From: Bullifex porci | Lineage (GTDB): Bacteria > Spirochaetota > Spirochaetia > Sphaerochaetales > Sphaerochaetaceae | Reading direction: 5' to 3' | DNA: 64,000 bases | Assembly: GCF_009695635.1 (NCBI RefSeq) | Contig: NZ_VUNN01000005.1 | Coordinates: forward strand, 1 to 64,000 | In this document: in pieces, positions 1 to 15,583 of the stretch | Layout of the letters: each line of letters begins with the position of its first letter | How positions within the stretch are numbered: position 1 is the stretch's first letter | The notes under the pieces: generated by a model | What the model was told of the DNA's origin: nothing | The model's input: only the letters and a program-made list of their open reading frames with translations | Database searches by the model: none | Program-made: the position numbers and the translations under genes

Positions 1-132
1 TTACCGTGGACAGCAAAAAACTGTTTATAAAATCTCTACAAGTTCTGTGCCTGAAGTGACAGGTCTAAGTCTTTATCAATAATAATTAAGGAAAGCACTT
101 TAGTATGGTTTGTATGTTTTCCCTTTTCATTT

Positions 133-180
133 GACTTTTTCTGTCCATTTTCAGCTGACTCTTTTTGTCCTTTTTCAACT
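133..180. repeat. 24-bp tandem duplication before the recombinase
   Basis: Two imperfect 24-bp units (133-156 and 157-180) each begin GACT, contain TGTCC and end in TTTTCA(G/A)CT. A third partial copy starts at 181, and a weaker related stretch lies just upstream. Read on the reverse strand it encodes eight-residue Lys/Glu/Asn/Gln-rich repeats, so it may be a coding remnant. It ends 10 bases before the chosen recombinase start. Confidence 0.6.
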
Positions 181-190
181 GACTCTGACA

Positions 191-1717
191 ATGCCAATAA
201 GTGCGCAGAAGAAGAGAAGGGTTGCTGCCTATGCACGTGTTTCAACTGAAGAGGACGACCAGCTTTCTAGCTATGAGGCACAGGTGAGCTATTATTCTTC
301 ATTCATCAAAAGTAACCCCGAATGGGAGTTTGTAGAAGTGTACTCTGATGAAGGTATTTCAGGTACACATACAAAGAAACGTGAAGGCTTTCTACGCATG
401 ATAGATGATGCAGTGAATCACAAAAAGATAGACCTCATACTCACAAAATCGGTATCGAGGTTTGCTAGAAACACTGTTGATAGTCTTTCCACCATTAGGC
501 TTCTTAAGGAAAATGGTGTAGAGGTCTATTTTGAGAAAGAGAACATCTACACCTTTGACTCTAAGGGCGAAATGCTTCTTACCATCATGTCATCCATTGC
601 CCAGGAAGAGTCCAGGTCCATATCGGAGAACGTTTCATGGGGAATGCAGAGGAGGTTCGAGGAAGGAAAGTACTCAGTAGGTTATAGCACATTTCTTGGC
701 TACGATAAGGGGAATGATGGAAAGCTTGTCATAAACCCTGAACAGGCAAAGACAGTTAGATACATTTTCACCCGTTTCCTTGAGGGAAAGACTCCTTATT
801 CCATAGCCAAGGAGCTAATGGAGAGGAAGATGAAGACAGGTGCCGGAAATGATAAATGGAGCACAGAGAGTGTTGTTAGAATTCTTCAAAACGAGAAGTA
901 CTGTGGAAAAGCCATACTCCAGAAGACCTACAAGAGAGATCTTCTTTCAAAAAGAATTACTAATAATGGAGAGGTGAGGAAATATCTAGTGGAAAATGGC
1001 CATGAAGCAATTATCCCACCTGAGCAATTTGAGATGGCGCAGCAGGAACTGGAATCTAGAAGAAAGGAAACTAGGCAGCATTCTTCAAAGTCTATATTTA
1101 CTTCAAAGCTTGTCTGTGGTGACTGTGGTAGCTTCTACGGCTCAAAGGTCTGGCACTCCACCGACAAGTACCGCAGTGTTGTATGGCAGTGCAACAACAA
1201 GTTCAAGGCTGACAAGAAGTGTACCACTCCACATCTTAGGGAAGGTGTAATAAAGAACGTATTCATCAAAGCTGTAAACAGTATTGTTACCGACAAAGGC
1301 CCTGCAATTGATATGATGAACCATATTAAGGCTAAGATTGATGATACTGCAGCACTTGAAGGAAAGCTTGAAAAGGCTACTACAGCCTTCGATGAGAAGA
1401 TGGTCCTTCTCCAGGATTACATTTCAAAAAACGCGATTACCGAGAAGGAGCTTGCAGATGGAAGATATTCAGAGCTTGAAAAGGATTACAGAGAAGCTTT
1501 AGCTGAGAAGGAAAAGCTTCAGGATGAGCTGACTGAGAGAAAGCGCAGGTCGCTGATGATAAAGAGATTCATTGATGAGGTGATTAGCTTTGATGATTTA
1601 TTTACTGAATTCTCCGAAAACCTCTGGCTTGGGCTTGTGGATGTGATAGTAGTGATGGACAAGAAGAAATTTATGGTAAAGTTCAAGGGCGGAATGGAAG
1701 TACCGGTTGAGCTTTGA
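191..1717 (+). CDS. Large serine recombinase
   Basis: Site-specific DNA recombinase of the large serine family, as used by integrative elements. The N-terminal resolvase domain (about residues 9-150) has the catalytic serine in YARVSTEEDD (Ser18) and the conserved motifs SVSRFARN and QEESRSISENV. A recombinase domain follows, with WSTESVVRILQNEKY, then a zinc ribbon (CGDCG, later a CNNK...C pair) and a coiled coil at about 405-470. The ATG at 191 is preferred because it begins the usual family N-terminus; an upstream in-frame TTG at 110 would add a low-complexity leader made of the 24-bp repeat. Neither has a strong ribosome binding site. It uses AGG arginine and GC-richer codons than its neighbours, which suggests transfer. 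No cargo genes or att sites could be identified around it. Confidence 0.93.
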   Translation: MPISAQKKRRVAAYARVSTEEDDQLSSYEAQVSYYSSFIKSNPEWEFVEVYSDEGISGTHTKKREGFLRMIDDAVNHKKIDLILTKSVSRFARNTVDSLSTIRLLKENGVEVYFEKENIYTFDSKGEMLLTIMSSIAQEESRSISENVSWGMQRRFEEGKYSVGYSTFLGYDKGNDGKLVINPEQAKTVRYIFTRFLEGKTPYSIAKELMERKMKTGAGNDKWSTESVVRILQNEKYCGKAILQKTYKRDLLSKRITNNGEVRKYLVENGHEAIIPPEQFEMAQQELESRRKETRQHSSKSIFTSKLVCGDCGSFYGSKVWHSTDKYRSVVWQCNNKFKADKKCTTPHLREGVIKNVFIKAVNSIVTDKGPAIDMMNHIKAKIDDTAALEGKLEKATTAFDEKMVLLQDYISKNAITEKELADGRYSELEKDYREALAEKEKLQDELTERKRRSLMIKRFIDEVISFDDLFTEFSENLWLGLVDVIVVMDKKKFMVKFKGGMEVPVEL

Positions 1718-2208
1718 CAAGCATCTTTACGATTATAAAGTAGTTCCGAAGGCAATGTGTCTCCGGACTATTTCTTCCACTCCTTAAATAGAAGGGGTTA
1801 CAAGATTCCCTTCTGAATTAACATAAGTACCAAGGAGCTTTTCTATTATTTTCTTATTAAGTCGATACTCAGTAATACTGTCATATTCTTTAGGAGGAAG
1901 AATTTTCTCTAGGATCCACCATAATAATTGGCCATCACCAATCCATGTTACGTTATTGGTTTTCTCAATGTATTCTCTTAATGATTGGGGAAGGAAGAAG
2001 CTCACGGATGAGTTCCGAGAAAACAAAGCCATATGGGATAACATCGGCAAGTAAATCGACTGAGCATTGGTATGAAATCATATCCCCATGTCAAATCGCA
2101 TAGAGCAGAGCCGTATGAAGACGTCACAGGATTCTTCGACTTCAGCCACTTAGGACGTTCCAAGGCATGCTTCCGCTAAGGTGACGGTACCGGCAAAAAA
2201 TCATTATA
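1718..2208. other. Gene debris downstream of the recombinase
   Basis: There is no convincing intact gene here. A weak inverted repeat (about 1740-1772, TAGTTCCG with CGGACTA) could end the recombinase transcript. Up to about 1985 the sequence is AT-rich. Its reverse strand (1784-2050) reads 88 codons with an unrecognised but protein-like C-terminal half. From about 1985 it becomes GC-richer, and the forward strand reads a protein-like tail ending at a TAA at 2052-2054 (KKLTDEFRENK), then a 35-codon frame (2072-2179) that also looks like protein (EPYEDVTGFFDFSHLGRS). The abrupt composition change suggests two unrelated fragments joined here. Confidence 0.45.
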
Positions 2209-2541
2209 GTGACTCAGAAGTTCCGGTGTATCAGTGAAGGGCATGGGCTTGAAGATGTAACTATAAATGTCAGGATGCTTGCAGGCAGCAGTCTCTCTGT
2301 CATTGATCTTCCTGCCGGATACTGCCGTGAATACGGTAGCTACTATGTGTACTCCTCGGTATTCGACGAGCTGATTGGAAGCCGTATGCGTCCAGAAGTG
2401 GAGATCTTTCAGAACCGCTTCAAAATGCCTGATGGCAGGTTTTACGGCTCGATATATGAAACAAACGGCAACCTTCAGAGCGAGTTCCTGCTGAAACGCT
2501 GCGGGTATACGGTCGGAATTACTGCTGGACTCAGCGATTGA
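2209..2541 (+). pseudogene. Unrecognised 110-codon frame, likely a gene remnant
   Basis: I do not recognise this product. It opens with a GTG lacking a ribosome binding site, just after stop codons in the same frame, so it is probably the tail of a longer gene. The protein has balanced, globular-looking composition, for example SVIDLPAGYCREYGSYYVY and FQNRFKMPDGRFYG. Codon use is GC-rich like the recombinase and unlike the chromosomal genes to the right. It could be a real small accessory protein; remnant status is inferred from the setting. Confidence 0.35.
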
Positions 2542-2786
2542 GCAAGGATCATACTCCTAAAGCAGATAAATGCTATGTAGCTCATGACCAGATAGGAAGT
2601 GATGAGCTACCTGAACTATTTCATTAGCTTCAACGGCAGGAAGTCAGACAACGAGATTGCGAAAATGTAGTGGGAACAGGACCTGATGACTATCAGCAGA
2701 AGATGATTGTTACTGGCTGCCGACACTGCAAAGATTTGCCTCTAATGATGATTCTATCCGCTCCACGATTGCATGTGATATAAATA
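2542..2786. other. Further accessory-gene debris
   Basis: A forward frame around 2600-2670 reads protein-like sequence (SYLNYFISFNGRKSDNEI) and is cut by a TAG, after which other short frames follow. No start signal or conserved motif is visible. I read it as decayed remains of the same transferred segment. Confidence 0.35.
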
Positions 2787-2820
2787 AAGAGAGACTTCCA
2801 TTCATGTCATGGAAGTCTCT
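2779..2820 (-). terminator. Terminator of the lipoprotein gene
   Basis: A perfect 11-bp stem (AGAGACTTCCA at 2790-2800, its complement at 2810-2820) with a 9-nt loop. On the reverse strand it is followed by a T-rich tract. It lies 40 bases past the stop of the reverse-strand lipoprotein gene. Confidence 0.8.
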
Positions 2821-2859
2821 GGTATGAAGACAGTAATGCCATGTAAATAATAAAGATGA

Positions 2860-4512
2860 TTACTCTATAACAAGTCCTGTTGAATCAATGCGGATTGTCT
2901 TCACGTTTCTTTCCTGATCAATATCCCAAGACTGGATGTAATCCAATTGTCCTGTGTGTCCTTGTTCATATCTCACATTAATATAGTTGTTCTTAATAAG
3001 GGTAACAGAAACGGATTTACTTTCTGATGTTGCATTAGAAGACAATGCAGGGTAGAGATTCTCTCCGTTTTCATTTACGATTTTGAAAATTCTTCCGTTC
3101 TCTTTATCCATTACATAAGAGATGAAGTCTTTTGCGTCTTTTGGATGACGTATGATATAATTGTTAACAGCAGACCAGTAATATGCAATACTGTACATAT
3201 CATTTATCGGCCCAGTTGCTGATGGACTTCCATCAAATTTTCCTGTAGGGCCTCCTTTTATATTAGAAAAACCGTAAGTATGTGTATACGCTGTTGGTGC
3301 GTATTGGAAAAAAATCATATCACCACAATCAAAATAATTGATTACCCCGTAATCACCTTGAGTTATTTCTTGGCCGTTATGATCAATGAATACTATATCT
3401 TCTTCATCATCTGTTGGCAATATTCCCCTCAATGAAACTCGGTTATAACTATTATTTTCGTTGTTTTCAATCAGAGAAACTGATATTGAAGAATATTTGT
3501 TATAATCCTTCACACCTGTTATCCCAATTAGTCTGTTTCTGTCCAAAACACCAGTTGAAACAGTTACATTTATGGTTTTGCTTCCGGTCCATACTGTGCT
3601 GCCTTCATCCATGGCAACGCATGTTACCCGGTATTCGCCTTCCTGAAAGGTATAGTTTACCTGCTGAGAGTTCCCATCAATAGGTTTCCCATCAACATAC
3701 CACATATAGGAGACAGGATTGAATTGCGTATGATTCGCCAACAGAGTTGTTTCATCATTTGCATATACATTTCTTTCAGATGTATCAATGGTTAAACTTG
3801 GAGTTTTAGTAATTCCGTTGGTTACACTTAAAGAAAGACTTCCTAAAGAATTTTCAGCTGCAGTCATGGAAACTGTTATGATATCACCTTTTACCATTCT
3901 GAAGCTCTCCGGTGCGGGCAGATCCAGTTCAACATTTGAAGTTACGGAATATAGATAATATCCGTTATTCAAAGTGAAAACAGCTTCAAGGACACCATCC
4001 TTAGCTGTAAAGGTTTTTTCATCGACCTGAGTAATTACGCCATTATTGTTTTTGTATATATGAGCTGTATAAATGATCGAAGGTGTAGTAGAACCATGAA
4101 TTGATATCGAGAATGTACCAGTACCCTCAAGCTCATTTATTCTTATCGAAGCATTTGATGTTTTCTTGGGCTGGACGGTGACAGTCGTAGAACCTTCTCC
4201 AATTATCTGATTTCCTTCATTATCATTATACGCAGTTGCGCTGATTGTCCAGTCACCTACAAGAATTCCGGTTTTCTCAGCCTGCCATGGTGATGAAGTA
4301 AAATCCATAGAGAAAGAGTTTCCCGCAGGCCCTGAAGCATTGATTGTGATTTTTGAAATGTTCAGGTTTATATTGGTATCAATGGATCTGCTTGCAGATT
4401 CGTCTATTGAAATATGTATGCTTCCTGTCTCTGGTTGTGAGTTTGAATTGCTGCAGGAAACAGCAAACAATACTAACAGTATTGATAAAAATATGATTAC
4501 AGTCTTTTTCAT
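2860..4512 (-). CDS. Surface lipoprotein with PKD/Ig-like region
   Basis: Probable exported lipoprotein of unknown role. The N-terminus has a hydrophobic signal and a lipobox ending in FAVSC (Cys about 20), followed by a Ser/Asn-rich linker typical of spirochaete lipoproteins. The rest looks like beta-sandwich modules: an N-terminal region to about 240, a PKD-like segment around 245-320 (YMWYVDGKPIDG, TFQEGEYRVTCVAMDEG), and a unique C-terminal domain. The ATG at 4512 has GGAGGG 5 nt upstream, better than the adjacent in-frame TTG at 4515. It is monocistronic, with its own terminator. A cell-surface or adhesion role is only a guess. Confidence 0.85.
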   Translation of the reverse strand: MKKTVIIFLSILLVLFAVSCSNSNSQPETGSIHISIDESASRSIDTNINLNISKITINASGPAGNSFSMDFTSSPWQAEKTGILVGDWTISATAYNDNEGNQIIGEGSTTVTVQPKKTSNASIRINELEGTGTFSISIHGSTTPSIIYTAHIYKNNNGVITQVDEKTFTAKDGVLEAVFTLNNGYYLYSVTSNVELDLPAPESFRMVKGDIITVSMTAAENSLGSLSLSVTNGITKTPSLTIDTSERNVYANDETTLLANHTQFNPVSYMWYVDGKPIDGNSQQVNYTFQEGEYRVTCVAMDEGSTVWTGSKTINVTVSTGVLDRNRLIGITGVKDYNKYSSISVSLIENNENNSYNRVSLRGILPTDDEEDIVFIDHNGQEITQGDYGVINYFDCGDMIFFQYAPTAYTHTYGFSNIKGGPTGKFDGSPSATGPINDMYSIAYYWSAVNNYIIRHPKDAKDFISYVMDKENGRIFKIVNENGENLYPALSSNATSESKSVSVTLIKNNYINVRYEQGHTGQLDYIQSWDIDQERNVKTIRIDSTGLVIE

Positions 4513-4638
4513 CAATTCCCTCCATATACATTATAAGAGTGATTACTTATTATTTCTATTCATTTTCAATGGTGCTTACTAAAAAACTTTATGAATGAGA
4601 CTATATCTTTCAGGTAATATATAATCTGAGGATTACCC

Positions 4639-4673
4639 CAGTCAGTCCACGATAACTTCAGCAGGGCTGGCTG
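4639..4673 (+). other. Isolated hairpin, possible terminator or small RNA
   Basis: CAGTCAGTCC (4639-4648) can pair with GGGCTGGCTG (4664-4673) in forward-strand RNA over 10 bp including two G-U pairs, and a short T tract follows. The reverse strand pairs less well, so a forward transcript is implied, but no forward gene lies upstream. Nothing else is visible between the lipoprotein start and this hairpin. Confidence 0.3.
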
Positions 4674-4788
4674 ATTTTCTGTTCAGAGTGTAAATATATT
4701 TAAAATAAAGATTTACAATAAAAATCTAGAATGGAAGCTATAATTATTATGCTTTTTGAGCCTTGAATTAAAAAAAGAGAGAAAGAAA

Positions 4789-4822
4789 GGTCTATGGAAT
4801 TAATGCTATAGGCCTATCTTTT
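4789..4822. terminator. Bidirectional terminator-like hairpin left of the repeat array
   Basis: GGTCTATGG (4789-4797) pairs with CTATAGGCC (4806-4814), allowing G-U pairs. ATCTTTTT follows on the forward strand and a T-rich tract follows on the reverse strand. With the tRNA terminator at 5190 it brackets the repeat array. Confidence 0.5.
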
Positions 4823-4858
4823 TGCCTATGTGATTATACTCTTTTTTTATACAATGTT

Positions 4859-5030
4859 ACGTTATTGAACACTGTGTTACGTTTTTCTTGAACTGTATAA
4901 CGTTATTCAAGAACTGTGTTACGTTATTCGAGTACTGTATAACGTTATTCTAAACCTATGTAACGAAATTCATAAACCCGATAACGTTATTCCAAACCTG
5001 TGTAACGTTATTCAATAACTGTATTACGTT
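4859..5030. repeat. Iteron-like array, 21-bp period
   Basis: Nine ACGTT-type boxes start at 4859, 4879, 4900, 4921, 4942, 4963, 4984, 5005 and 5026. The spacings are 20 then seven times 21 bp, two helical turns. The best-conserved core is TAACGTTATTC followed by a variable AA(C/T)CTGT-type half. One unit (4963) has decayed to ACGAAATTC. Further ACGTT boxes occur out of phase up to 5155. It is not coding: frames across it contain stops. The units touch one another without spacers, which rules out CRISPR. Regular helical phasing suggests an array of protein binding sites, but no protein in the window is an evident partner. Confidence 0.8.
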
Positions 5031-5037
5031 TTAAAAA

Positions 5038-5067
5038 ATTATCGTTGCATACGTGTGTAACGATAAT
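5038..5067. repeat. Inverted repeat next to the 21-bp array
   Basis: ATTATCGTT (5038-5046) and AACGATAAT (5059-5067) form a perfect 9-bp inverted repeat with a 12-base spacer containing ACGTGTG. It directly follows the array and shares the AACG core, so it may be part of the same site. The flanking 5068-5189 is AT-rich with two stray ACGTT boxes and no gene. Confidence 0.6.
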
Positions 5068-5189
5068 AAAGGGGGAGCGAACACGTGTTCATTTACGTTG
5101 CTACAGTTACCCAGATTTTACCTTATTTTTGAGCTTCTATGTTCAATTACGTTACAGAGGAGTCTTTTTAATTCTTTATGGTGTATAAA

Positions 5190-5225
5190 TAAAAAAAATC
5201 AGAACCTGAAAGTATCAAGTTCTGA
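5190..5225 (-). terminator. Terminator of the tRNA-Met transcript
   Basis: An 11-bp stem with one internal mismatch (TCAGAACCTGA at 5199-5209 with TCAAGTTCTGA at 5215-5225). On the reverse strand it is followed by eight T residues. It lies about 10 bases past the tRNA 3' end. Confidence 0.85.
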
Positions 5226-5235
5226 CTAATTGGAT

Positions 5236-5308
5236 AGCGAGAGGGGGACTCGGACCCTCGACCGAACGGATATGAGCCGTTTGCTCTACCAACTGAGCTA
5301 TCTCGCCG
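5236..5308 (-). tRNA. tRNA-Met (CAU anticodon)
   Basis: Reverse-strand cloverleaf of 73 nt: acceptor GGCGAGA/TCTCGCT, D arm GCTCAGTTGGTAGAGC, anticodon stem AACGG/CCGTT with loop CTCATAT (anticodon CAT), and T arm GAGGG/CCCCC (one G-C strand offset by a G-U-like pair) with TCCGAGT. The discriminator is A, the first pair is G-U, and CCA is not encoded. Elongator Met is most likely. A CAU tRNA-Ile read after lysidine modification is not excluded. Confidence 0.9.
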
Positions 5309-5397
5309 ACGCAACATGGTTACAATACACAATTAGTTAAAATGAGTCAACAGCTTTTCAAGGAAAAAATAAAAAAGATGTGTAAAAAATATTAATA

Positions 5398-5426
5398 TTG
5401 ATGATTTCTATGCAATGTGATAAATA
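5398..5426 (+). promoter_or_regulatory. Promoter placed for a near-leaderless mRNA
   Basis: TTGATG and TAAATA are separated by 17 bp and the MATE ATG starts 9 nt after the -10. There is no Shine-Dalgarno sequence in the gap, so the transcript would start at or within a few bases of the ATG. Confidence 0.45.
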
Positions 5427-5435
5427 CTAAGCGTT

Positions 5436-6785
5436 ATGGCTAATTCTTTAGATCTCACACAAGGCTCTATAAAAAAGGGGTTATTAAGCTTTGCATTTCC
5501 ACTTTTCTTAGGAAATCTATTTCAGCAGCTTTATAATACAGTAGACTCCTTAATAGTTGGAAACTTTTTAGGTCCCTTAGCCTTAGCATCTGTTTCATCA
5601 TCTACACCATTAATATTCATGATGATTGGCTTTTTCCAGGGTGTTGCAGTAGGAGCAGGTGTAGTTATAGCAAAATCCTTTGGCGCTAGAGATAAAGATA
5701 GCTTAACTAAAGCAGTTTATACAGATTTAGCTTTAGGCTTAACAGCAGGAATATTATTATCAATTTTTGGAGTTCTATTTACTCCATCAATATTAAAGCT
5801 GATGAAAACTCCAAGTGATATTCTACCTAATTCGATAGAATACTTTAGAATTTACTCGTATGGCTTGATATTTAGCATGATGTATAACATATGTAATGGA
5901 ATCATGAATGCAATAGGTGATTCAAAGCACCCACTATATTATCTTATTACATCTTCAATAACTAATGTTATATTAGACCTTCTTTTTGTAGCTGTATTAG
6001 GCTTTGGTGTTTGGTCAGTTGCCTTAGCTACAACTCTATCTCAAGCATTAAGTGTAGTATTAAGCTTCATAAGATTAATGAAGGGTAATGATCTGTTTAA
6101 GGTTGAAATAAGTAAAATTAGATTCGATGGTAAAACATTAAAGGATGTAATTAGGTTTGGTCTTCCTGCTGGAATACAAAATAGTGTAGTTGGCTTTGCA
6201 AATACTGTAGTTCAAACTAATGTAAATACCTTTACTTCAGTTGCTGTTGCAGGTAGTGGTGCATATGCGAAGATTGAAGGCTTTGCATTTTTACCTATTA
6301 CGTGCTTTGCTTTATCATTAACAACCTTTATAGGCCAAAATCTTGGAGCAAAAAAATATGATAGAGCTAAAGAGGGTGCTAGATTTGCAATTTTGTGTTC
6401 AATAAGTGCTGCAGAAATAATAGGAATATTAGTATTTATTTTTGCACCTTTCTTAATAAGTCTATTTAATGATGATCCTGAGGTTGTAGCATTTGGTACT
6501 AAGCAATGTCGTATTGAAGGATTATTTTACTTTGCTTTAGCCTTTTCTCATTGTATTGCTGGTATCTTAAGGGGTAGTGGAAAGGCAACAGTTCCTATGT
6601 TCATTATGATTGGAATATGGTGTGTATTTAGAGTTACCTATTTAACTGTAGTATTACATTTCTTCCACTATGTACAAATAATATATTCAGTCTACCCTCT
6701 AACCTGGTCATTAAGTACAATTCTATTCTTAATTTATTTCTTGAAGGCAGACTGGATACATGGATTAGAAAAGAAAAGGGTTTAA
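5436..6785 (+). CDS. MATE family multidrug exporter
   Basis: Inner-membrane cation-coupled exporter of the MATE family (NorM/DinF type), with unknown substrate. The 449 residues give about 12 membrane segments in two homologous halves, typical for the family. The N-terminal half has FPLFLGNLFQQLYNTVDS, where the family places its conserved helix 1, and the second half starts near residue 235 (GLPAGIQNSVVGFANT). It is a single gene with no ribosome binding site and a -10-like hexamer 9 nt before the ATG. Its stop overlaps by 4 bp the end of the convergent FAH-family gene. Confidence 0.92.
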   Translation: MANSLDLTQGSIKKGLLSFAFPLFLGNLFQQLYNTVDSLIVGNFLGPLALASVSSSTPLIFMMIGFFQGVAVGAGVVIAKSFGARDKDSLTKAVYTDLALGLTAGILLSIFGVLFTPSILKLMKTPSDILPNSIEYFRIYSYGLIFSMMYNICNGIMNAIGDSKHPLYYLITSSITNVILDLLFVAVLGFGVWSVALATTLSQALSVVLSFIRLMKGNDLFKVEISKIRFDGKTLKDVIRFGLPAGIQNSVVGFANTVVQTNVNTFTSVAVAGSGAYAKIEGFAFLPITCFALSLTTFIGQNLGAKKYDRAKEGARFAILCSISAAEIIGILVFIFAPFLISLFNDDPEVVAFGTKQCRIEGLFYFALAFSHCIAGILRGSGKATVPMFIMIGIWCVFRVTYLTVVLHFFHYVQIIYSVYPLTWSLSTILFLIYFLKADWIHGLEKKRV

Positions 6786-7546
6786 ACTACCTCGTTTCTT
6801 AATACTCCTAATCCTTCGATTTCAATTTCAATAACATCGCCAGCTTCCATCTTATGAATACCTGATGGAGTACCTGTTAAGATTACATCACCTGGAAGTA
6901 ATGTCATTACTTTAGATAGATATGATACTAAGTAATCACAGGTGAAGAGTAAGTTTTTGGTATTGCTTGATTGCATTACCTTACCATTAAGTCTTGATTC
7001 AATTTTAAGATTAGTTGGATCAACCTCATCGCTTACATATGGACCAAGTGGAAGGAAGGTATCAAAGCCCTTACAAATTGTCCATTGACCATTTTGATCC
7101 TGTAAGTCTCTAGCAGTTACATCATTAGCACAGGTATAGCCAAGGATGTAATCCTTACTCTCTTCTATTGAAACATTCTTACATTCCTTTTTAATTACGA
7201 TAGCTAGCTCTGCTTCATAATCGACTCTTTGGCTCATCTCTGGTCTAATAATTTCACCATTTGGATCTAATACACTTGATGCTGGCTTGATAAAGATTAC
7301 AGGAGACTTTGGAGTTACAAGCTTCATCTCCTCAATGTGGTCCTTATAGTTTAGGCCTACACATAAAGCCTTAGTTGGAATTGTTGGAGCTAATAATATA
7401 ACACTTTCTCTGTCATAGGTTTTTCCACATTCAACTAATTCACCCTCTGTATCATAAATATTTTCAATTTCAACTATCTTTTCATCGTTTAAATATCCCA
7501 TGTGGATATCATCATCTTCAACTGTAGAAAACATTACATATTTCAT
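6782..7546 (-). CDS. Fumarylacetoacetate hydrolase family protein
   Basis: FAH-superfamily enzyme, a metal-dependent C-C hydrolase, isomerase or decarboxylase of 2-oxo acids. The catalytic domain runs from about residue 58 (ALCVGLNYKDHIEEM). The metal ligands are in YEAELAIVI (two Glu) and CANDVTARDLQ (Asp). The C-terminus has the conserved GDVILTGTPSGI. Its 254 residues match the short bacterial members such as YcgM. GGAGG lies 8 nt before the ATG, and the gene overlaps the upstream GNAT gene by 4 bp, so they are co-transcribed. Substrate cannot be told; oxaloacetate tautomerase or acylpyruvase are candidates. Confidence 0.9.
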   Translation of the reverse strand: MKYVMFSTVEDDDIHMGYLNDEKIVEIENIYDTEGELVECGKTYDRESVILLAPTIPTKALCVGLNYKDHIEEMKLVTPKSPVIFIKPASSVLDPNGEIIRPEMSQRVDYEAELAIVIKKECKNVSIEESKDYILGYTCANDVTARDLQDQNGQWTICKGFDTFLPLGPYVSDEVDPTNLKIESRLNGKVMQSSNTKNLLFTCDYLVSYLSKVMTLLPGDVILTGTPSGIHKMEAGDVIEIEIEGLGVLRNEVV

Positions 7547-8184
7547 CTTTTATTCCTCCAAGTTTTATAGCTTCTAACTATTTCAAAGCCTAAGTGCTGA
7601 TAAAAAGCTAAAAGCTCTATATCCTCAACAAAAATATAGCTGAAAGGAAGAGAATTTATCAATAAAGATGCATAGCCTTTATTCCTTTCTTCTATGCTTG
7701 TTGCAATATTTACAGCTAATTGCTGCTTCTTAATTGTATATAGAGAGCTAATAATATTATTTTGATTATCTCTAAAAAATGCAAATTCACTATCACACGG
7801 TTTTAAACCACTTAGATATTCATACTCTGTATCAAAGGGAGTTTTATCTTGGTAGAAGGAAGCTATTTCTTCTAATTCCTTACTACTTAGAAAATGATAA
7901 ATATTACTATTTTTTATTTTATTTCTCTTTAGAAGATATCTATCGGGATTATCATTTGAGGGATAGATAGCATAGCTAATACTTTTTTTGTTTTTATTTA
8001 TAAAGCTTAATATTTCATCATCAAAGCTATCTGCTATAACAAATAGATGGTTATAGGCGTTAATATAAATTATCCCCTTATCAGAGGAGTAGATGACCAT
8101 ATTATCATCTATTTCTGAAAAGGGGATGATAAGGTGGCTTTCATTTAGATAATCGATCTTAAAGCTTGAAAGCCGCTTAAACAT
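7543..8184 (-). CDS. GNAT-like acetyltransferase
   Basis: Probable N-acetyltransferase of the GNAT fold. The acetyl-CoA loop signature is in the C-terminal third (ATSIEERNKGYASLLINSL), followed by the usual strand and LLAFYQHLGFEIVRSY. The N-terminal about 100 residues are not recognisable, and might be a degenerate first GNAT domain or a substrate-binding cap. AGGAAG precedes the ATG. It sits between hflC (1-bp overlap with its stop) and the FAH gene (4-bp overlap), so it is part of an hflK-hflC-GNAT-FAH operon. Target unknown. Confidence 0.75.
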   Translation of the reverse strand: MFKRLSSFKIDYLNESHLIIPFSEIDDNMVIYSSDKGIIYINAYNHLFVIADSFDDEILSFINKNKKSISYAIYPSNDNPDRYLLKRNKIKNSNIYHFLSSKELEEIASFYQDKTPFDTEYEYLSGLKPCDSEFAFFRDNQNNIISSLYTIKKQQLAVNIATSIEERNKGYASLLINSLPFSYIFVEDIELLAFYQHLGFEIVRSYKTWRNKR

Positions 8185-9164
8185 TATTTATTACTTCCTG
8201 CATAAAGCTGATCAAAGTAGCTCATATCGGTTGAGAAGATTTTATCTATACCAACAAGTGAAGTCTTATAGGATTCCAGTGTTCTATAGAATGAGAAGAA
8301 TTCAGGATCAGCTTCATAAGCCTGAGAGTAAATTCTTGAGGCTTGAGCATCTGCATCACCCTTAATCTTTTCAGCTTTAGCATAGGCTTCAGAGAGGATA
8401 GCTTTTTTATCATTTTCTGTTTTACCCTGCCACTGAGCAAGCTGTCCACGACCATAGGAACGATAAGCTTCAGCTATTTGGTTTCTTTCCTTAATCATTC
8501 TTGTGTAAACAGATTCTGTTAAATCATCTGAATATCTAATTTGACGAATGATAATATCTTGAAGAGTAATACCATATGCCTTAGTAAACTCTGAGGCTTG
8601 AGCGAGAATCTTATTTGAAAGCCCCTCACGACCAATTTTAATTTCCTCTTGGCTAGTAGCTGTAGCAGTAAGGTTTCTAAGTGTTTCAGCATCCTCTGTA
8701 TTTTCTAAGGATACATCTTCCTTAACTGTAATTAAGTTAATTTGGTTACTACTTCTAACAGCCTCATTAAGATAGTTTTCTGAGATAACAGTTCTAATAG
8801 TTGAGTCAATGACATCATTTAATCTTCCAAGACCAGATTCAATAGTACCAACAGTTTCATAGAAGAGTGCTACATCACTGATGTACCATCTTGCTGTTGC
8901 ATCAACCCAAATAAACTGATTTTCCTTAGTAGGAATTCTCTGCGCGTCCCCATCCCAGCTTAAAAGCTTTTTAGTATATTTTGTTACATTATCAACTACA
9001 GGCATTTTGAATTTTAAGCCAGACTCTGTTTGATAATCTACAATTTTACCAAATCTAGTTACTATAGCCTGTTCGCCTTCTTCAAGAATGTAGAATGGGC
9101 CTAACATTAAAAATACTATTAGTAAAACTGCAAGCACAACTAGAGTTGTAATTAGCTTTTTCAT
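8184..9164 (-). CDS. hflC: HflC, SPFH-domain FtsH regulator
   Basis: Membrane-anchored SPFH protein that with HflK forms a large cage around the FtsH protease. It has one N-terminal membrane segment (LVVLAVLLIVFLMLGPFYIL), then the SPFH domain with EGEQAIVTRFGKIV and DATARWYISD, and a helical region ending in GDADAQASRIYSQAY. Length (326) is normal. Its ATG overlaps the hflK stop (ATGA), with GGAGGT 6 nt upstream. No ftsH is present in the window. Confidence 0.95.
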   Translation of the reverse strand: MKKLITTLVVLAVLLIVFLMLGPFYILEEGEQAIVTRFGKIVDYQTESGLKFKMPVVDNVTKYTKKLLSWDGDAQRIPTKENQFIWVDATARWYISDVALFYETVGTIESGLGRLNDVIDSTIRTVISENYLNEAVRSSNQINLITVKEDVSLENTEDAETLRNLTATATSQEEIKIGREGLSNKILAQASEFTKAYGITLQDIIIRQIRYSDDLTESVYTRMIKERNQIAEAYRSYGRGQLAQWQGKTENDKKAILSEAYAKAEKIKGDADAQASRIYSQAYEADPEFFSFYRTLESYKTSLVGIDKIFSTDMSYFDQLYAGSNK

Positions 9165-10135
9165 TTTGTACCTCCAAGATTCTTAATAGGTAAGAACTGT
9201 GATAGGTTTTTATCTACTAATGTAATTTCTTTATCTGTTAGGATTTCATCCATAGTCTCAATATACAAACGATTAGAGGTAATTTCCTTACTCTCCTCAT
9301 AAGCCTCTCTAAGAGCATCAAATCTAGCTGCATCACCAGTAGCAGTATTTACTCTTTCAGCTGCATATCCCTGAGCCTGTAGAATAAGCTTACTAGCTTC
9401 ACCCTGAGCGGCAGGAATTTCTTGGTTATAGTGCTCCTTACCTTCGTTGATTAATCTATTCATATCCTGAATAGCTTTGTTTACATCCTCAAAGGCATCC
9501 TGTACATCACCCTCTGGTGGAACAATATTTTGAAGCTTTACAGTTACAATTTGAATACCAAAGTTATATCTATCAAAGATTTCCTGCATGTTCTGCTGAG
9601 CTTCAATTTCTATCTGAGTTCTTAAGTTAGTCATTACAGATAAAATAGGTAAATCTCCAACTAGAGCATTCATTACAGATTGAGAGATATCACGAATAGT
9701 TGTTTCTCTATTTTCAACATTAAAGAGCCAATTCTTTGGATCATTAATCTTATATTGAACAATCCACTCTACATCAACAATATTCAAGTCCCCTGTTAAC
9801 ATTGTTGATTCACTCTTATAGCTAGAAGCACCCTTTAAGCCTGTACCAGTTTTATCGTTTGCACGATAACCAAAGGTTAAGGTTTGTACTACCTGAGTAG
9901 GTACAATATAAACGCTATCAATACCAAAAGGTATTTTGGTCTGAAGTCCAGGGCCTACAGTTCTATTATACTTTCCAAGTCTTAAAACTACAGCTTGTTC
10001 AGTCTGGTCAACTACAAAGAATGATGAAGCTGCTGCACCTACTAGTAATGCAATTATTAGTGCAACAATAATAATCTTTGGTGAGAGTGAAAAACCATGT
10101 TTTACAGGTCTCACGACTTTTTCTTCTTCGTCCAC
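9161..10135 (-). CDS. hflK: HflK, SPFH-domain FtsH regulator
   Basis: Partner of HflC in the FtsH-regulating membrane complex. One membrane segment (about residues 17-42, IIIVALIIALLVGAA), then the SPFH domain with VDQTEQAVVLRLGKYNR and PFGIDSV, then a coiled-coil region with EIPAAQGEASKLILQAQGYAAERV, the HflK signature. GTG start with AAAGGAG 6 nt upstream. It is the first gene of the reverse-strand hflK-hflC-GNAT-FAH operon. Its promoter lies in 10136-10260, next to the left end of the TnpB element. Confidence 0.95.
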   Translation of the reverse strand: MDEEEKVVRPVKHGFSLSPKIIIVALIIALLVGAAASSFFVVDQTEQAVVLRLGKYNRTVGPGLQTKIPFGIDSVYIVPTQVVQTLTFGYRANDKTGTGLKGASSYKSESTMLTGDLNIVDVEWIVQYKINDPKNWLFNVENRETTIRDISQSVMNALVGDLPILSVMTNLRTQIEIEAQQNMQEIFDRYNFGIQIVTVKLQNIVPPEGDVQDAFEDVNKAIQDMNRLINEGKEHYNQEIPAAQGEASKLILQAQGYAAERVNTATGDAARFDALREAYEESKEITSNRLYIETMDEILTDKEITLVDKNLSQFLPIKNLGGTK

Positions 10136-10483
10136 ACATTACTCCTTTAAATAAATATATGATAAAATTAGACCAATTAGGGTTTATCGGCAAGACAAAT
10201 TGTGTTTTTCTTTTAATCACCTTACAAAATATAGGGTAAATCTTTATCCTGTTATATATATGCTGCGAAAAACCCTCACGCTTGCGTGTGGGATGAAAGC
10301 AGTTTTTTTTACCTTGAAAATTAACTAGGATAATTAAATATTCTATATGTATAATAAATCTAGAAAGGAAATAAAAGGGGAATAAGTAATACAAGCATAC
10401 ACAGAAAACAGTAACCATCATAATAATCAATGAAATACTGATAATTCAGCATATCATTCAAATCGTGGAGGAAGATAATAGTA

Positions 10484-12205
10484 ATGGCTCGTCCCAAAAG
10501 CAATAACGTACAAATCAATATTTCTGTTCCCTCTGAATGGAAAACTGAACTTGAAAACCTTGCTAGAATCTATTCAGTTGAGGAAGGAAAAACCATGATT
10601 GATGAAGAGTATAATAAGCTACTAAAACAATATCATAAGGTTTCAGAGAGGCATATTTTAGCTGTTGAAAGTGATATGCCTTATTCTGATATACTTCAAG
10701 TTGTAACTCTTTCAGATAAAATACGAAAAGCAGGAAACGAGCTTGTAGCTCTTATGAGAAAGAATTATGAGCAACTTCTACGCACAAAGAGATACCGCAA
10801 GCTACTTGTTTTGTATGGTAACACCGGAGATAAAAATAAACGAAAAGCTTTAGCTAATCAGCTTAGTGAAATGCAGAAAGACTATAATGTCACATGGGAT
10901 TATTGTAGAAAATCCATGATTCCAATAGGTAAAAAATATGGAATAGATGCTGTTTTTGCCTTAACTAAAGCTGAGGATATTTGGGGAGGTGTAGAGAAAT
11001 GCTTATATGGGAGAGGAGCAACAATTCACTTCTCTAAATACGGAGAACTGCCTTGCATCAGATCAAAACAGATAAATCGTGGTATACCAATATCTGTAAA
11101 GAAAGAGCAGCTACAATTCAAACTTGGTAAGATTAATTTTGGAATAAAGATAGTTGATAGATTTCAACGAGATGAGGTTAATTCAATTGTGTCCTATCTT
11201 GCAGAATCTGAAAACATAGATAGAAAAGCGGTTAATGCTTTCAAGGAAGATGCCCGATGCATAGACACATACAGGCCATGCTATGCAACGCTTGTACCTA
11301 AATTAATAAGGCGCAAATACAGGGTATATTTACACCTGACCATTGAAGGTAAGGCAAAACCAAAATACAACAAGTATGGTAGTCTTCGACATAAGTATGG
11401 TAAAGGTATTATAGGTGCTGATATTGGTACACAGACTGTTGCGTATACATCTAATACAGAGGTGGGCTTGAAAAATCTTTCAGAGCGTGGAAATAGTATT
11501 CAAACTTCAGAGAGGAAAGAACGACTACTCCATCGTGCGATGGATAGGTCAAGAAGAGCTACTAATCCTCAAAACTATAACGATGATGGTAGTGTTAAAA
11601 AAGGTCATAAGGATTGGAAATATTCAAATCATTATAAAAAGCTGAAATCCAAATTTCATGAATTATGTCGAATCAATGCAGTAAATAGACAACTTGCAAT
11701 AAACGAGGATGCAAATCATTTACGTAGTTTGGCTAATACATTTGTAACTGAAGAGAAAAATGCAAGCAAACTCATGAAGCGTGCTAAAGAAACCACAAAA
11801 AATGAAAAAGGTAAATTCAATAAGAAAAAAAGATTTGGCAAAACAATAAAGAACAGGTGCCCTTCTAAATTTCAGACCACTGTACAAAAGAAATTCGAAG
11901 TGACAGGCGGTACATATATCGAGGTTTCTAATAATTATAGAGCATCACAATATGACCATACTGCGGATGATTATATCAAGAAGAAGCTATCTGATAGATT
12001 GTATAAACTTCGTAGTGGTACTGAGGTGCAGAGAGATTGGTATTCCTCATTCTTACTCTATTGTTACGATTATAGAACAAACAGCATAGATAAAAATAAA
12101 TGTAATATGGAATTTGGAAGATTCTACAATATGGAGAAAAAACTAATAGAAAGGATTAAGGTTAATAAGATTAAAGTATTGAACAGTGGAATTAAAATAG
12201 GTTAA
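10484..12205 (+). CDS. tnpB: TnpB-like RNA-guided nuclease with RHH-like N-terminus
   Basis: RuvC-type nuclease of the TnpB/OrfB family, which uses a transposon-end RNA as guide. RuvC residues visible are Asp313 (GIIGADIGTQTVA), Glu423 or Glu424 (FVTEEKN) and Asp518 (GTEVQRDWYSSFLLYC), so the catalytic triad seems intact. The CxxC...CxxC zinc ribbon found in most TnpB proteins between the last two motifs is absent. It is longer (573) than the usual about 400. Residues 7-40 (VQINISVPSEWKTELENLAR) resemble a ribbon-helix-helix DNA-binding segment, which is unusual. GGAGG lies 12 nt before the ATG. It is AT-rich like the host genome. Confidence 0.85.
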   Translation: MARPKSNNVQINISVPSEWKTELENLARIYSVEEGKTMIDEEYNKLLKQYHKVSERHILAVESDMPYSDILQVVTLSDKIRKAGNELVALMRKNYEQLLRTKRYRKLLVLYGNTGDKNKRKALANQLSEMQKDYNVTWDYCRKSMIPIGKKYGIDAVFALTKAEDIWGGVEKCLYGRGATIHFSKYGELPCIRSKQINRGIPISVKKEQLQFKLGKINFGIKIVDRFQRDEVNSIVSYLAESENIDRKAVNAFKEDARCIDTYRPCYATLVPKLIRRKYRVYLHLTIEGKAKPKYNKYGSLRHKYGKGIIGADIGTQTVAYTSNTEVGLKNLSERGNSIQTSERKERLLHRAMDRSRRATNPQNYNDDGSVKKGHKDWKYSNHYKKLKSKFHELCRINAVNRQLAINEDANHLRSLANTFVTEEKNASKLMKRAKETTKNEKGKFNKKKRFGKTIKNRCPSKFQTTVQKKFEVTGGTYIEVSNNYRASQYDHTADDYIKKKLSDRLYKLRSGTEVQRDWYSSFLLYCYDYRTNSIDKNKCNMEFGRFYNMEKKLIERIKVNKIKVLNSGIKIG

Positions 12206-12409
12206 AACTTAATAACAGGGAGAATGACTGTACTTCCTTGCTGAAAAGCAGAAATTTATCGCTAATGTGGTCGTAGGACTGCTTGATAATGAAAGTCCTG
12301 ATTCAAATAGGCTTACACTTGTAACTCCAAAGTCTGAAAATGATGTACGATTACAAGCTACTCTTGGTAATCAGAACCCCACGGGCTTGCCCGTGGGAGC
12401 AGTCAGAAG
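12206..12409 (+). ncRNA. Candidate guide RNA (omega RNA) and element right end
   Basis: In TnpB elements the stretch from the end of tnpB to the right end encodes the guide scaffold, with the guide formed by the flanking DNA. Here 204 bases without an ORF follow the tnpB stop and end with the perfect right-end hairpin (12378-12397) and AGTCAGAAG. The sequence just beyond, beginning TTTTTAAAAAGTAGG, would be the guide. This assignment comes from position and family knowledge only; no transcript evidence is available. Confidence 0.5.
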
Positions 12410-12432
12410 TTTTTAAAAAGTAGGTGGATTTA

Positions 12433-14652
12433 ATGAAAAAGAGATTAATAACTTCAGCACTTCCATATGTAAATAATATTCCTCACTTAGGTAACTTAAC
12501 TCAGGTTTTATCAGCAGATGTATTTGCAAGATTTTGTCGCTTACGTGGCTATGAGACACTATACATTTGTGGAACAGATGAGTATGGTACAGCTAGTGAG
12601 ACTAGAGCATTAAAAGAGGGTGTAACACCAAGAGAGCTATGTGACCATTATCATGCTATTCATAGAGATATATATAAATGGTTTAATATTTCTTTTGATT
12701 ATTTTGGTAGAACTAGTACAGAGAAGCAGACAGAAATTGTACAAGCAATATTTAATGAGGTTGATAAGAATGGCTATATCACAGAGCGTGAGATAGAACA
12801 GCTATATTGTCCTAAATGTGGTAGATTCCTAGCAGATAGATTCGTTGAAGGTACCTGTCCTCATTGTGGTAGTGAAGGAGCACGTGGTGACCAGTGTGAT
12901 GCCTGTCAGACTCTTCTTGAGCCAACAGAGCTTATTAATCCACATTGCTCTGTTTGTGGAACTACTCCAGAGGTTAGAAAGACAAAGCATCTATATATCG
13001 ACCTTCCAAAGGCTCTTCCACTATTAAAGAAGTGGATGGAAAAGGCCTCTGTCGAGGGCTTCTGGGCAAAGAATGCTATCCAGCTGACAAACTCTTGGAT
13101 TCGTGATGGCTTAAAGGAAAGATGTATTACTCGTGATTTAAAGTGGGGTATCCCAGTTCCTAAGCCAGGCTATGAAAATAAAGTATTCTATGTTTGGTTT
13201 GATGCTCCAATTGGATATATTTCAATTACAGCTAATTATACTGATAATTGGAAATATTGGTGGCAGGACCCAGATAACACAGAATTATTCCAATTTATTG
13301 GTAAAGATAATATCCCATTCCATACAGTTATTTTCCCATCATCACTACTTGCAACTGGTGAGAATTGGACAATGCTACACCATATGTCCTCTACTGAATA
13401 TTTAAACTATGAGGGTGGTAAGTTTAGTAAATCACTTGGTATTGGTGTATTTGGTAATGATGTACAGGAGACTGGAATTCCTGCTGATTGCTGGAGATTC
13501 TATATGTTCTATAACAGACCAGAAAGAAGTGATGTTAATTTCTCATGGTCAGATTTCCAAGAGAAGGTTAATGGCGAGCTAATTGGTAATCTTTCAAATC
13601 TCGTTAATAGAACTCTAACCTTTATCTCAAGATTCTATGATGGCAAGATCCCTGAGGGAGAGCTTGATGCAGATTTAGTTAATGATATTAGAGCTAAAGA
13701 AAATGAGATCACTAATCTCTTAGAGAGAGCTGAAGAAAGAGATGCTTTAAGAGCTATCTTTGGTCTTTCAGATATCGGTAATAAGGCTTTCCAAGCTGGT
13801 GAACCATGGAAGATGAGAAAGGAAGATCCTGCTAAAGCAGCTTCACTATTAAAGACTCTTTGCTACTTAATTAGAGATTTAGCAATTATGATTGAGCCAT
13901 ATATGCCTACTACTAGTAAGCAAATTCTCTCATTCTTCTCAATTGAGAACGAAAACTGGGATAGTGTTGGATCATTTGAGGGTATTAGTACAATTAGCGG
14001 TGTAACTCTTCTTTTCTCAAAGCTTGAGGATGACTTTATTAATAACTTAAAGCTTAAGTATTCAGGCTCACAAGAAGAGAGAAATAAGGCACAGGAAGAA
14101 AAAAAGATTAATAAGGAAGAAAAGAAAATGGATAATGAAAATCAGATGAGCATTGCAGATCAATTTGCTCACAAGGTAATTTTAAAGGTTAGTAAGATTG
14201 TTAGTGTAGAAAAGCACCCTAATGGTGATATTTTATACATCCTTAAGCTTAACTGCGGTGAGCCAGAGGAAAGAACAATTGTATCTTCAATCGTTCCATA
14301 TTACACAGCTGAAGAGCTTCTTGGACATAACATCGTATTAGTTTCAAATCTTAAGCCAGCTAACTTTAGAGGTGTTAAGAGCTATGGTATGCTTCTTGCT
14401 GCAAGTGATCCAAATGCTCCTGAGCATACAACCTGTGAAGTTCTCTTTGCAGATGATTTTGAGCCAGGTACTGTTCTTGAGTTCGATGGACAGGGTGAAG
14501 TTGAGAAGGTAACTACATATATTAAGCCAGATCATTTCTTTGCTCTCCCAATCTATTCTGAGGATGGTGTTATCAAGGTTGATGGCAAGGCTCTCGGCTT
14601 TAGTGGTAAGCACTTAACCTGTAAGAAATATATTAATGGACCAGTTGGTTAA
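12433..14652 (+). CDS. metG: Methionyl-tRNA synthetase with tRNA-binding C-domain
   Basis: Charges tRNA-Met with methionine. Class I catalytic core with the HIGH-type motif NNIPHLGNL near the N-terminus, a zinc-knuckle insert with four CxxC pairs (CPKC, CPHC, CDAC, CSVC) and the KMSKS-type motif GGKFSKSLG. An anticodon helical domain follows, then a charged linker (about 560-580) and a C-terminal EMAP/Trbp111-like domain (VILKVSKIVSVEKHPNGD). The ATG at 12433 has AGGTGG 5 nt upstream; the earlier GTG at 12424 lies inside that site. The TnpB element ends about 12 bases before the ribosome binding site, so the ancestral promoter has been pushed 2 kb away. Confidence 0.97.
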   Translation: MKKRLITSALPYVNNIPHLGNLTQVLSADVFARFCRLRGYETLYICGTDEYGTASETRALKEGVTPRELCDHYHAIHRDIYKWFNISFDYFGRTSTEKQTEIVQAIFNEVDKNGYITEREIEQLYCPKCGRFLADRFVEGTCPHCGSEGARGDQCDACQTLLEPTELINPHCSVCGTTPEVRKTKHLYIDLPKALPLLKKWMEKASVEGFWAKNAIQLTNSWIRDGLKERCITRDLKWGIPVPKPGYENKVFYVWFDAPIGYISITANYTDNWKYWWQDPDNTELFQFIGKDNIPFHTVIFPSSLLATGENWTMLHHMSSTEYLNYEGGKFSKSLGIGVFGNDVQETGIPADCWRFYMFYNRPERSDVNFSWSDFQEKVNGELIGNLSNLVNRTLTFISRFYDGKIPEGELDADLVNDIRAKENEITNLLERAEERDALRAIFGLSDIGNKAFQAGEPWKMRKEDPAKAASLLKTLCYLIRDLAIMIEPYMPTTSKQILSFFSIENENWDSVGSFEGISTISGVTLLFSKLEDDFINNLKLKYSGSQEERNKAQEEKKINKEEKKMDNENQMSIADQFAHKVILKVSKIVSVEKHPNGDILYILKLNCGEPEERTIVSSIVPYYTAEELLGHNIVLVSNLKPANFRGVKSYGMLLAASDPNAPEHTTCEVLFADDFEPGTVLEFDGQGEVEKVTTYIKPDHFFALPIYSEDGVIKVDGKALGFSGKHLTCKKYINGPVG

Positions 14653-15583
14653 TATAGAGCCAATAAATATTTCTGAATTAAATTCAGAAAGTGTTTTTCA
14701 ATCCTCATTTTGGGCTTATGTTAAAAGCCCAAATTGGGTATCTTATGCCTTCAGATATCAAACAAATAGATCTGGAGGCACTTTTCTTATTTTAGTAAGA
14801 AAGCTATTTTTATCTTTTTCTATTGCATACTCTCCATTTTGTTTTAAAGATATTGATAGTAAAGAATTAATCGAAATCTCAAAGAAAATAAAAAAATATA
14901 TAAATGAAAATATAATTTTAGTTCGATATGATTTATCTTATAGTAATGATAATTTTTCATTTATTAAGCATTTACATAGATGTAAATATTCAATTCAACC
15001 AAAAGAATCTGTAATAATCGATTTAGAAAAGGATTTGTGCTTTAAGCAAAGAGTTAAGAGAAATCTTAAGAAAGAAGCAGAGGTTGAAGTTTTCAAGTGG
15101 GATAATAGTGAAGCTGAGTATAACGCTTGGTATAGAACCTATTTAGAGACAGCAAAGCGTGATGGCTTTGACGCAAGAAGTAAAGCATATATAAAAAGAT
15201 TACTTAGCTATAAGGGTGTAGATGTTAAACCTATTTTATACATTGCAAAGCACAATGATGAGGTAATAGGTGGAATAGTTAATATAAGAAATAGCTTTGA
15301 GGAGATTTATCTCTTTGGCTCTTCTTCATTTATTAAGGATGGAGTTTCATGTGGCTATAGCTTGCAAAGCTATGCAATAAATAGAGCTAAGGAAGATAAG
15401 CTAAAATACTACGATTTATTTGGAATAGGAGAGGGGAATTTAAATAAGCTAACAACCTTTAAAACCTCCTTTGGCGGAGAAGCTGTTAAAAGACCTGCTT
15501 CCTGTGATTACTACTATAATAAAATTCTGGCATCGTGCTATAAGTTTATTGAAAATATAAGATTTAAAGCTAAGCGCGGCTAA
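14636..15583 (+). CDS. FemAB-like aminoacyl-ligase / GNAT protein
   Basis: Member of the FemAB/MurMN-type double-GNAT fold, which adds amino acids to peptidoglycan precursors from aminoacyl-tRNA. Visible features are FQSSFWAYVKSPNWVSYAF at the N-terminus, the central FKQRVKRNLKKEAE helix, GGIVNIRN, and the C-terminal YYDLFGIGEG...LTTFKTSFGGEAV, a typical FemAB ending. The start overlaps metG by 17 bp, so they are translationally linked; a TTG at 14645 is an alternative. The 3' end overlaps murD by 14 bp. Adjacent murD supports a cell-wall role, but a lipid or protein target is possible. Confidence 0.82.
   Translation: MDQLVNIEPINISELNSESVFQSSFWAYVKSPNWVSYAFRYQTNRSGGTFLILVRKLFLSFSIAYSPFCFKDIDSKELIEISKKIKKYINENIILVRYDLSYSNDNFSFIKHLHRCKYSIQPKESVIIDLEKDLCFKQRVKRNLKKEAEVEVFKWDNSEAEYNAWYRTYLETAKRDGFDARSKAYIKRLLSYKGVDVKPILYIAKHNDEVIGGIVNIRNSFEEIYLFGSSSFIKDGVSCGYSLQSYAINRAKEDKLKYYDLFGIGEGNLNKLTTFKTSFGGEAVKRPASCDYYYNKILASCYKFIENIRFKAKRG

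Follow-up and report, generated by a model that had tools for sequence, protein, structure and literature searches.

What is the function of an array of 21-bp repeats that lies, helically phased and free of genes, beside a tRNA-Met gene of the spirochaete Bullifex porci? The array is located close to the start of contig NZ_VUNN01000005.1 (assembly GCF_009695635.1), the first 64,000 nucleotides of which were analysed here as the window, and an earlier note on this DNA had compared it with plasmid iterons. The explanation that we regard as the best, and as rather probable, is that the array forms an accessory part of the attachment site of a prophage-like element, whose large serine recombinase (LSR) would have directed its integration into the 3' end of the tRNA gene.

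The array comprises nine TNACGTTATTC-like boxes (4857-5034) starting at 4857, 4877, 4898, 4919, 4940, 4961, 4982, 5003, and 5024, i.e., with one step of 20 bp followed by seven of 21 bp. The spacing given in the earlier note therefore stands, and its count of eight ACGTT units is to be replaced by nine boxes, one of which (4961) reads ACGAA in place of ACGTT. Period search, box listing, and comparison with the homologous locus L164 delimit the feature to 4855-5034 on the forward strand, with the consensus CTGTRTWACGTTATTC. For 4859-5038, Tandem Repeats Finder reports a period of 21 (7.6 copies) and, with a higher score, a period of 42 (4.3 copies), because the units alternate between GTTACG and ATAACG. 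The identity at lag 21 reaches 0.83 in the best 42-bp stretch, a value attained by none of 200 dinucleotide shuffles. The alternative of a decayed seven-codon coding repeat, i.e., a heptad protein, was ruled out, since the heptad-like reverse frame holds five TAG stops instead of the two initially noticed, and a comparison of frames across relatives found none running open through the array in all homologous copies. The stretch is non-coding and, as had been described, flanked by two terminator-like hairpins at 4788-4815 (+) and 5227-5197 (-). The inverted repeat adjoining the array is likewise present (ATTATCGTT / AACGATAAT, 5038-5046 / 5059-5067; kept in L164, similar in L165), and the feature does not end with it at 5067, as inverted unit copies and an attachment arm continue to 5236.

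The neighbourhood of homologous copies provides the first line of evidence. Our comparison covered 16 genomes of the genus and 139 of the family, most of them fragmented metagenome-assembled genomes, and the array or its 3' part was found in few species, mostly of one other genus. The search for further arrays suggested by the earlier note was thus successful, and their neighbours, an LSR gene and a tRNA gene, indicate that the array is not the solitary one it had seemed. The own genome contains pieces on contig C4, namely, the hairpin with two units (8497-8617), the 3' part (11137-11232), and the tail of another copy of the recombinase. A cargo-free copy (L169) displays the order LSR 3' end, hairpin terminator, array, inverted repeats, tRNA terminator, and tRNA 3' end, and the same order is found in L167, whose contig ends inside the LSR. 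The LSR 3' end adjoins the array in L167, L169, and L177, while in L164, as in the window, lipoprotein-type cargo genes lie between the two; the array-to-tRNA part is also present in L165 and L168 beside tRNA-Leu. The tRNA partners are Met-CAT (window and L178), Leu-TAA (L164, L165, L168, and L169), and Leu-CAA (L167, L173, and L177). All four full-length copies of this first subtype with upstream sequence (window, L164, L167, and L169) lead from the LSR gene or its 3' end via the array to the tRNA arm. A second subtype, GTTACGAAAYNC, with the same 21-bp pitch occurs in L173 and L178; its non-coding array region of about 300 bp (L173 860-1202; minus strand in L178) is near-identical across two genera and two tRNA genes, which argues for a recent move. 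The step pattern 20, 21, 21... recurs in all preserved copies of subtype 1, and steps of 42 are confined to decayed boxes. Copies have six to nine units and differ by whole units, the one in L177 being degenerate; neither the phase shifts nor the intact gene in relatives that the earlier note had envisaged were encountered. No match to the array was detected in phage and plasmid records, and none in viral contigs by exact-pattern search. A linked tyrosine integrase was not found; a single tyrosine-recombinase fragment was seen by eye at a truncated array (L172). The helically phased multi-site array of the earlier note holds up, as phase and sequence are conserved between species, and protein-binding sites would be its simplest reading. 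From these comparisons we conclude that the array is conserved, phased DNA of what appears to be a mobile-element end, and not a solitary iteron array.

The second line of evidence comes from the tRNA gene itself, where occupied and empty chromosomal sites can be distinguished. The homologous tRNA-Met was recovered from 15 of the 16 genus members, and the 13 element-free ones carry a native flank with unrelated terminators after the tRNA; the MATE gene that precedes the tRNA in the window is found at five of these 13 loci and in genome G003. In G000 and G003, the similarity to these empty sites ends with the discriminator base, and GCTA is followed by TCC.. in place of the native AAG... At the junction, tRNA and element have only TA in common, and no identity block of at least 12 bp was found between attP and the tRNA 3' end. 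By this comparison, the element meets the tRNA at the discriminator base (TA, 5235-5236) and supplies a new terminator.

The third line is the predicted crossover point. Downstream of the LSR stop, L081, L103, and L238, which encode distant relatives of the recombinase, contain a mismatch-free attP dyad of 52 bp, TTGTATCAA-N34-TTGATACAA, and the exact arm pair appears only at a gap of 34, with none at any other gap from 10 to 69. The dyad centre falls on positions 26-27, which places the predicted crossover 25-26 nt beyond TTGTATC. This motif is located 25-26 nt from the tRNA end at five independent clostridial loci with a convergent tRNA (L066, L074, L083, L086/L279, and L090; tRNAs Leu, Leu, Leu, Ala, and Met), at the equivalent place in L155, and as one-letter variants at about the same distance in L236 and L067. 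In the arm of the spirochaete family, TTGTATCAAATTCTGACTNAAAGGA, the TA of the tRNA 3' end falls on positions 26-27, and the window arm reads AAGTATCAAG.. from 5210 with its TA at 5235-5236. Integrated copies such as that of the window show only one arm; in the tRNA-free copies L166 and L172, another sequence resembling an arm sits at the distance predicted, with six of nine positions matching in each, which is suggestive only. The crossover points derived from the empty-site comparison and from the dyad centre are independent predictions and agree to the base. We therefore have little doubt about the combination of an order shared across species and three tRNA genes, a tRNA junction at TA, and a crossover matching the centre of the attP dyad. 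As a universal LSR motif, TTGTATC was rejected (21 of 154, compared with a background of 7% per 700 bp).

The array itself seems to be maintained. Between the window and L164, 150 of its 172 positions are identical (87%), compared with 57 of 93 four-fold sites of the LSR gene (61%; Fisher p 2e-6), and the region after the array is also more conserved than these sites (140/171 identical; Fisher p 4e-4). These values point to purifying selection on an array with a fixed 21-bp phase. Phased repeats in the same gap between LSR and arm are present in three other LSR lineages, with periods of 19 bp (L279/L086, beside tRNA-Met), 19/20 bp (L065), and 20 bp (L214). According to our proposal, positions 4788-5236 would represent the attachment-site end of a decayed prophage-like element, integrated by its LSR at the tRNA-Met 3' end, with the array as an accessory part of the attachment-site region. 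The 21-bp phasing would set all boxes on one face of the helix as putative sites for an element-encoded DNA-binding protein or for the recombinase itself, and the bound array might fold or mark the attP side and thereby control integration versus excision. Toward this role of the boxes, which we infer, we lean only slightly. The copy in the window appears to have decayed and may be dead, as its P' arm is mutated, cargo is present between LSR and array, and the operon is probably interrupted by an IS21-like repeat.

Several points weigh against this proposal. The conservation test presumes a single shared history of array and LSR, few of the about 150 LSR loci have a clear phased array in this gap, and the best-studied serine integrases are not known to require accessory DNA. 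No complete element with both ends (attL and attR) was found, and the window begins at a contig end. Furthermore, a helix-turn-helix/zinc-ribbon gene resembling phrog_2308, which is located upstream of the recombinases in 97 of the 111 loci with enough upstream DNA, did not emerge as the partner of the array: across 80 loci, its recognition helix and the repeat words co-varied only slightly given LSR identity (partial r 0.05, p 0.012), and the signal vanished when the rest of the protein was also controlled (partial r 0.02, p 0.23), so that this candidate is not supported. The array as a general companion of LSRs was ruled out as well, most of the roughly 150 loci being without one.

Among the other explanations, binding of the recombinase itself, with the units serving as half-site-like decoys or as a loading strip, survives best and is nevertheless doubtful. 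GTAT is present in the units of L065 and L214, where the final repeat continues into TTGTATC, and some units of the window family read CTGTATAAC, which looks near TTGTATCAA; however, the alternate units read CTGTGTTAC, and the repeats of L279 and L066 are unlike the arm. An iteron replication origin of a circular form, the reading closest to the earlier note, is unlikely. Excised elements may replicate, and the array does resemble plasmid iterons in its direct, phased repeats of about 21 bp, which are accompanied by inverted repeats and an AT-rich flank. Nevertheless, no replication initiator gene was recognised among the open reading frames beside any homologous copy, and cumulative GC skew, proposed earlier as a check, has no turning point at the site (1-16000 scanned). 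In the four full-length copies of subtype 1 with upstream sequence, what precedes the array is instead the LSR gene or the 3' end of that gene, and beyond the array comes the attachment arm at the end of a tRNA gene; repeats between LSR stop and attP arm in other LSR lineages fit recombination better. The statement that no replication, partition, or regulator gene is adjacent was correct with respect to replication; a serine-recombinase gene (110-1717) is located 3 kb upstream.

We judge as equally improbable a multi-site operator, or an insulator or spacer that keeps LSR transcription off the tRNA. The conserved, phased array lies between two convergent terminators, but the site is downstream of both the LSR gene and the tRNA, and promoter-like sites are not above the level of shuffles. 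Even less probable is a neutral minisatellite hitch-hiking with the element: the variation from six to nine units and the degenerate copy in L177 would suit it, but the identity of the array exceeds that of four-fold sites in the linked gene, and unit order and phase are retained between species. A transcribed structured RNA can practically be dismissed, since the 13-bp stem into which the inverted repeat (5038-5067) folds is offset by a fold z-score of -1.47, equalled by 15 of 200 shuffles, and by Rfam matches above threshold to the tRNA only.

The attachment-site end that we propose contains further features on both sides of the array. Upstream, a terminator hairpin (AGGTCTATGG..CTATAGGCCT plus T-run, 4788-4820, +) has its counterpart right after the LSR stop in L164, L169, and L167, where it is the terminator of the LSR gene itself. 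Downstream, a 12-bp palindrome, GAACACGTGTTC (5079-5090), which reads GAACACTTGTTC / GAACAACGTGTTC in relatives, is followed by two inverted unit copies on the minus strand, i.e., a shortened one, TGTTCATTTACGTTGCTACAG (5086-5106), recognised from sequence and box listing, and TGTTCAATTACGTTACAG (5140-5157), the piece most widely retained among relatives. The putative element-borne tRNA terminator (AGTCAGAAC..GTTCTGA plus T-run, 5197-5227, -) is missing after tRNA-Met in element-free relatives. It overlaps the candidate attachment arm P', AAGTATCAA (5210-5236, +), apparently a decayed TTGTATCAA ending in the predicted crossover dinucleotide TA (5235-5236), and the target, tRNA-Met(CAT), occupies 5235-5307 on the minus strand according to the tRNA match and the empty-site comparison. 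The assumption that the AGTCAGAA hairpin is a terminator private to the element proved partly wrong, as tRNA-Leu and tRNA-Glu genes that lack an array also have related hairpins behind them. Terminators of this type at such array-free genes (L115, L110, L111, and L113) show that the element terminator resembles a host tRNA terminator.

The recombinase gene of the window, LSR2 (110-1717, +; likely start ATG at 191), encodes Resolvase, Recombinase, and Zn ribbon domains (Pfam), matches the integrase family phrog_95 (PHROG, E 1.5e-149), and contains the catalytic YARVS; the 3' end of this gene is the one that adjoins the array in relatives. Related LSRs (45-54% identity) are encoded in Clostridia and clostridial prophages, and the loci inspected have the gene order phrog_2308 - LSR1 - LSR2. 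Upstream holin (L238) and endolysin (L279) genes identify these elements as prophages. In the source genome, phrog_2308 (L021 1646-2032) and LSR1 (L021 191-1459) are situated at the start of contig C4, where 24-bp repeats (C4 64-145) resemble those opening the contig of the window (120-186). Based on these alike repeats at the start of both contigs, the operon was probably split by an IS21-like element, and the join of C4 to the window is inferred. Triplets of about 24-bp repeats like IS21-family ends stand beside three recombinase copies (window 120-186, L021 64-145, and L024 854-920), two of them at contig starts. A two-recombinase integrase class of Clostridia and Spirochaetes that targets tRNA 3' ends, with a phased array between integrase gene and attP as direction-setting nucleoprotein scaffold and the phrog_2308 protein as array-binding directionality factor, is a speculative extension to which we attach little confidence.

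In textbooks, it is the tyrosine integrases that use tRNA genes. Published work also ascribes tRNA targeting to them (PMC4383910, PMC4701971), and earlier reports of serine integrases at tRNA genes may exist beyond the open-access literature. The islands and prophages that tyrosine integrases with arm-type sites bring into tRNA 3' ends resemble the present case in this insertion, which restores the gene, and in repeats beside the core, whereas the enzyme here is a serine recombinase and the identity block of 12-54 bp is reduced to the crossover dinucleotide. A close parallel for the site is the Listeria A118/LI system. The attP contacted by LI integrase is 50 bp long and has the distal zinc-domain motif TTTAGTATC in a 25-bp half-site (PMC3783163), and the enzyme has the same three domains. 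Both systems show a two-arm dyad (52 bp here), a central dinucleotide crossover, and a distal GTATC, which is shared by arm motif and zinc-domain motif and located three positions further out here; the LI half-site, in contrast, is described without an array. Streptococcus integrative and conjugative elements also have adjacent LSR genes of the same direction at the element end, but their serine-integrase triplets are reported in mutT, traG, and hsdM, not in tRNA genes (PMC4701971), and the present arrangement has two LSRs behind a phrog_2308-like gene. If our reading holds, tRNA genes of two phyla are used by a lineage of serine recombinases through a decoded 52-bp site with its crossover at the last tRNA base, so that many insertion sites would become predictable and the lineage would be a candidate tool for DNA integration at tRNA 3' ends. 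Should the array prove functional, it would represent an accessory control in an enzyme class that is prized because it is thought to need none.

Some minor observations concern the surrounding genes. In L065 (7756) and L214 (5724), the TTGTATC arm downstream of the LSR abuts another LSR coding sequence a few codons before the conserved DEGIS, as would be seen if these elements used a resident recombinase gene as their target. Among the cargo near copies of the array are restriction genes of the GmrSD type (DUF262; L178 14997-19270, L021 18022-18996), a known anti-phage type, and the island contig L021 also encodes a group II intron reverse transcriptase (RVT_1, weak maturase domain; L021 16306-17568). 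In the window, an open reading frame of 573 aa (10484-12205) resembles a TnpB/transposase relative (IGADIGTQTVAYTS), with no Pfam match at E 0.01.
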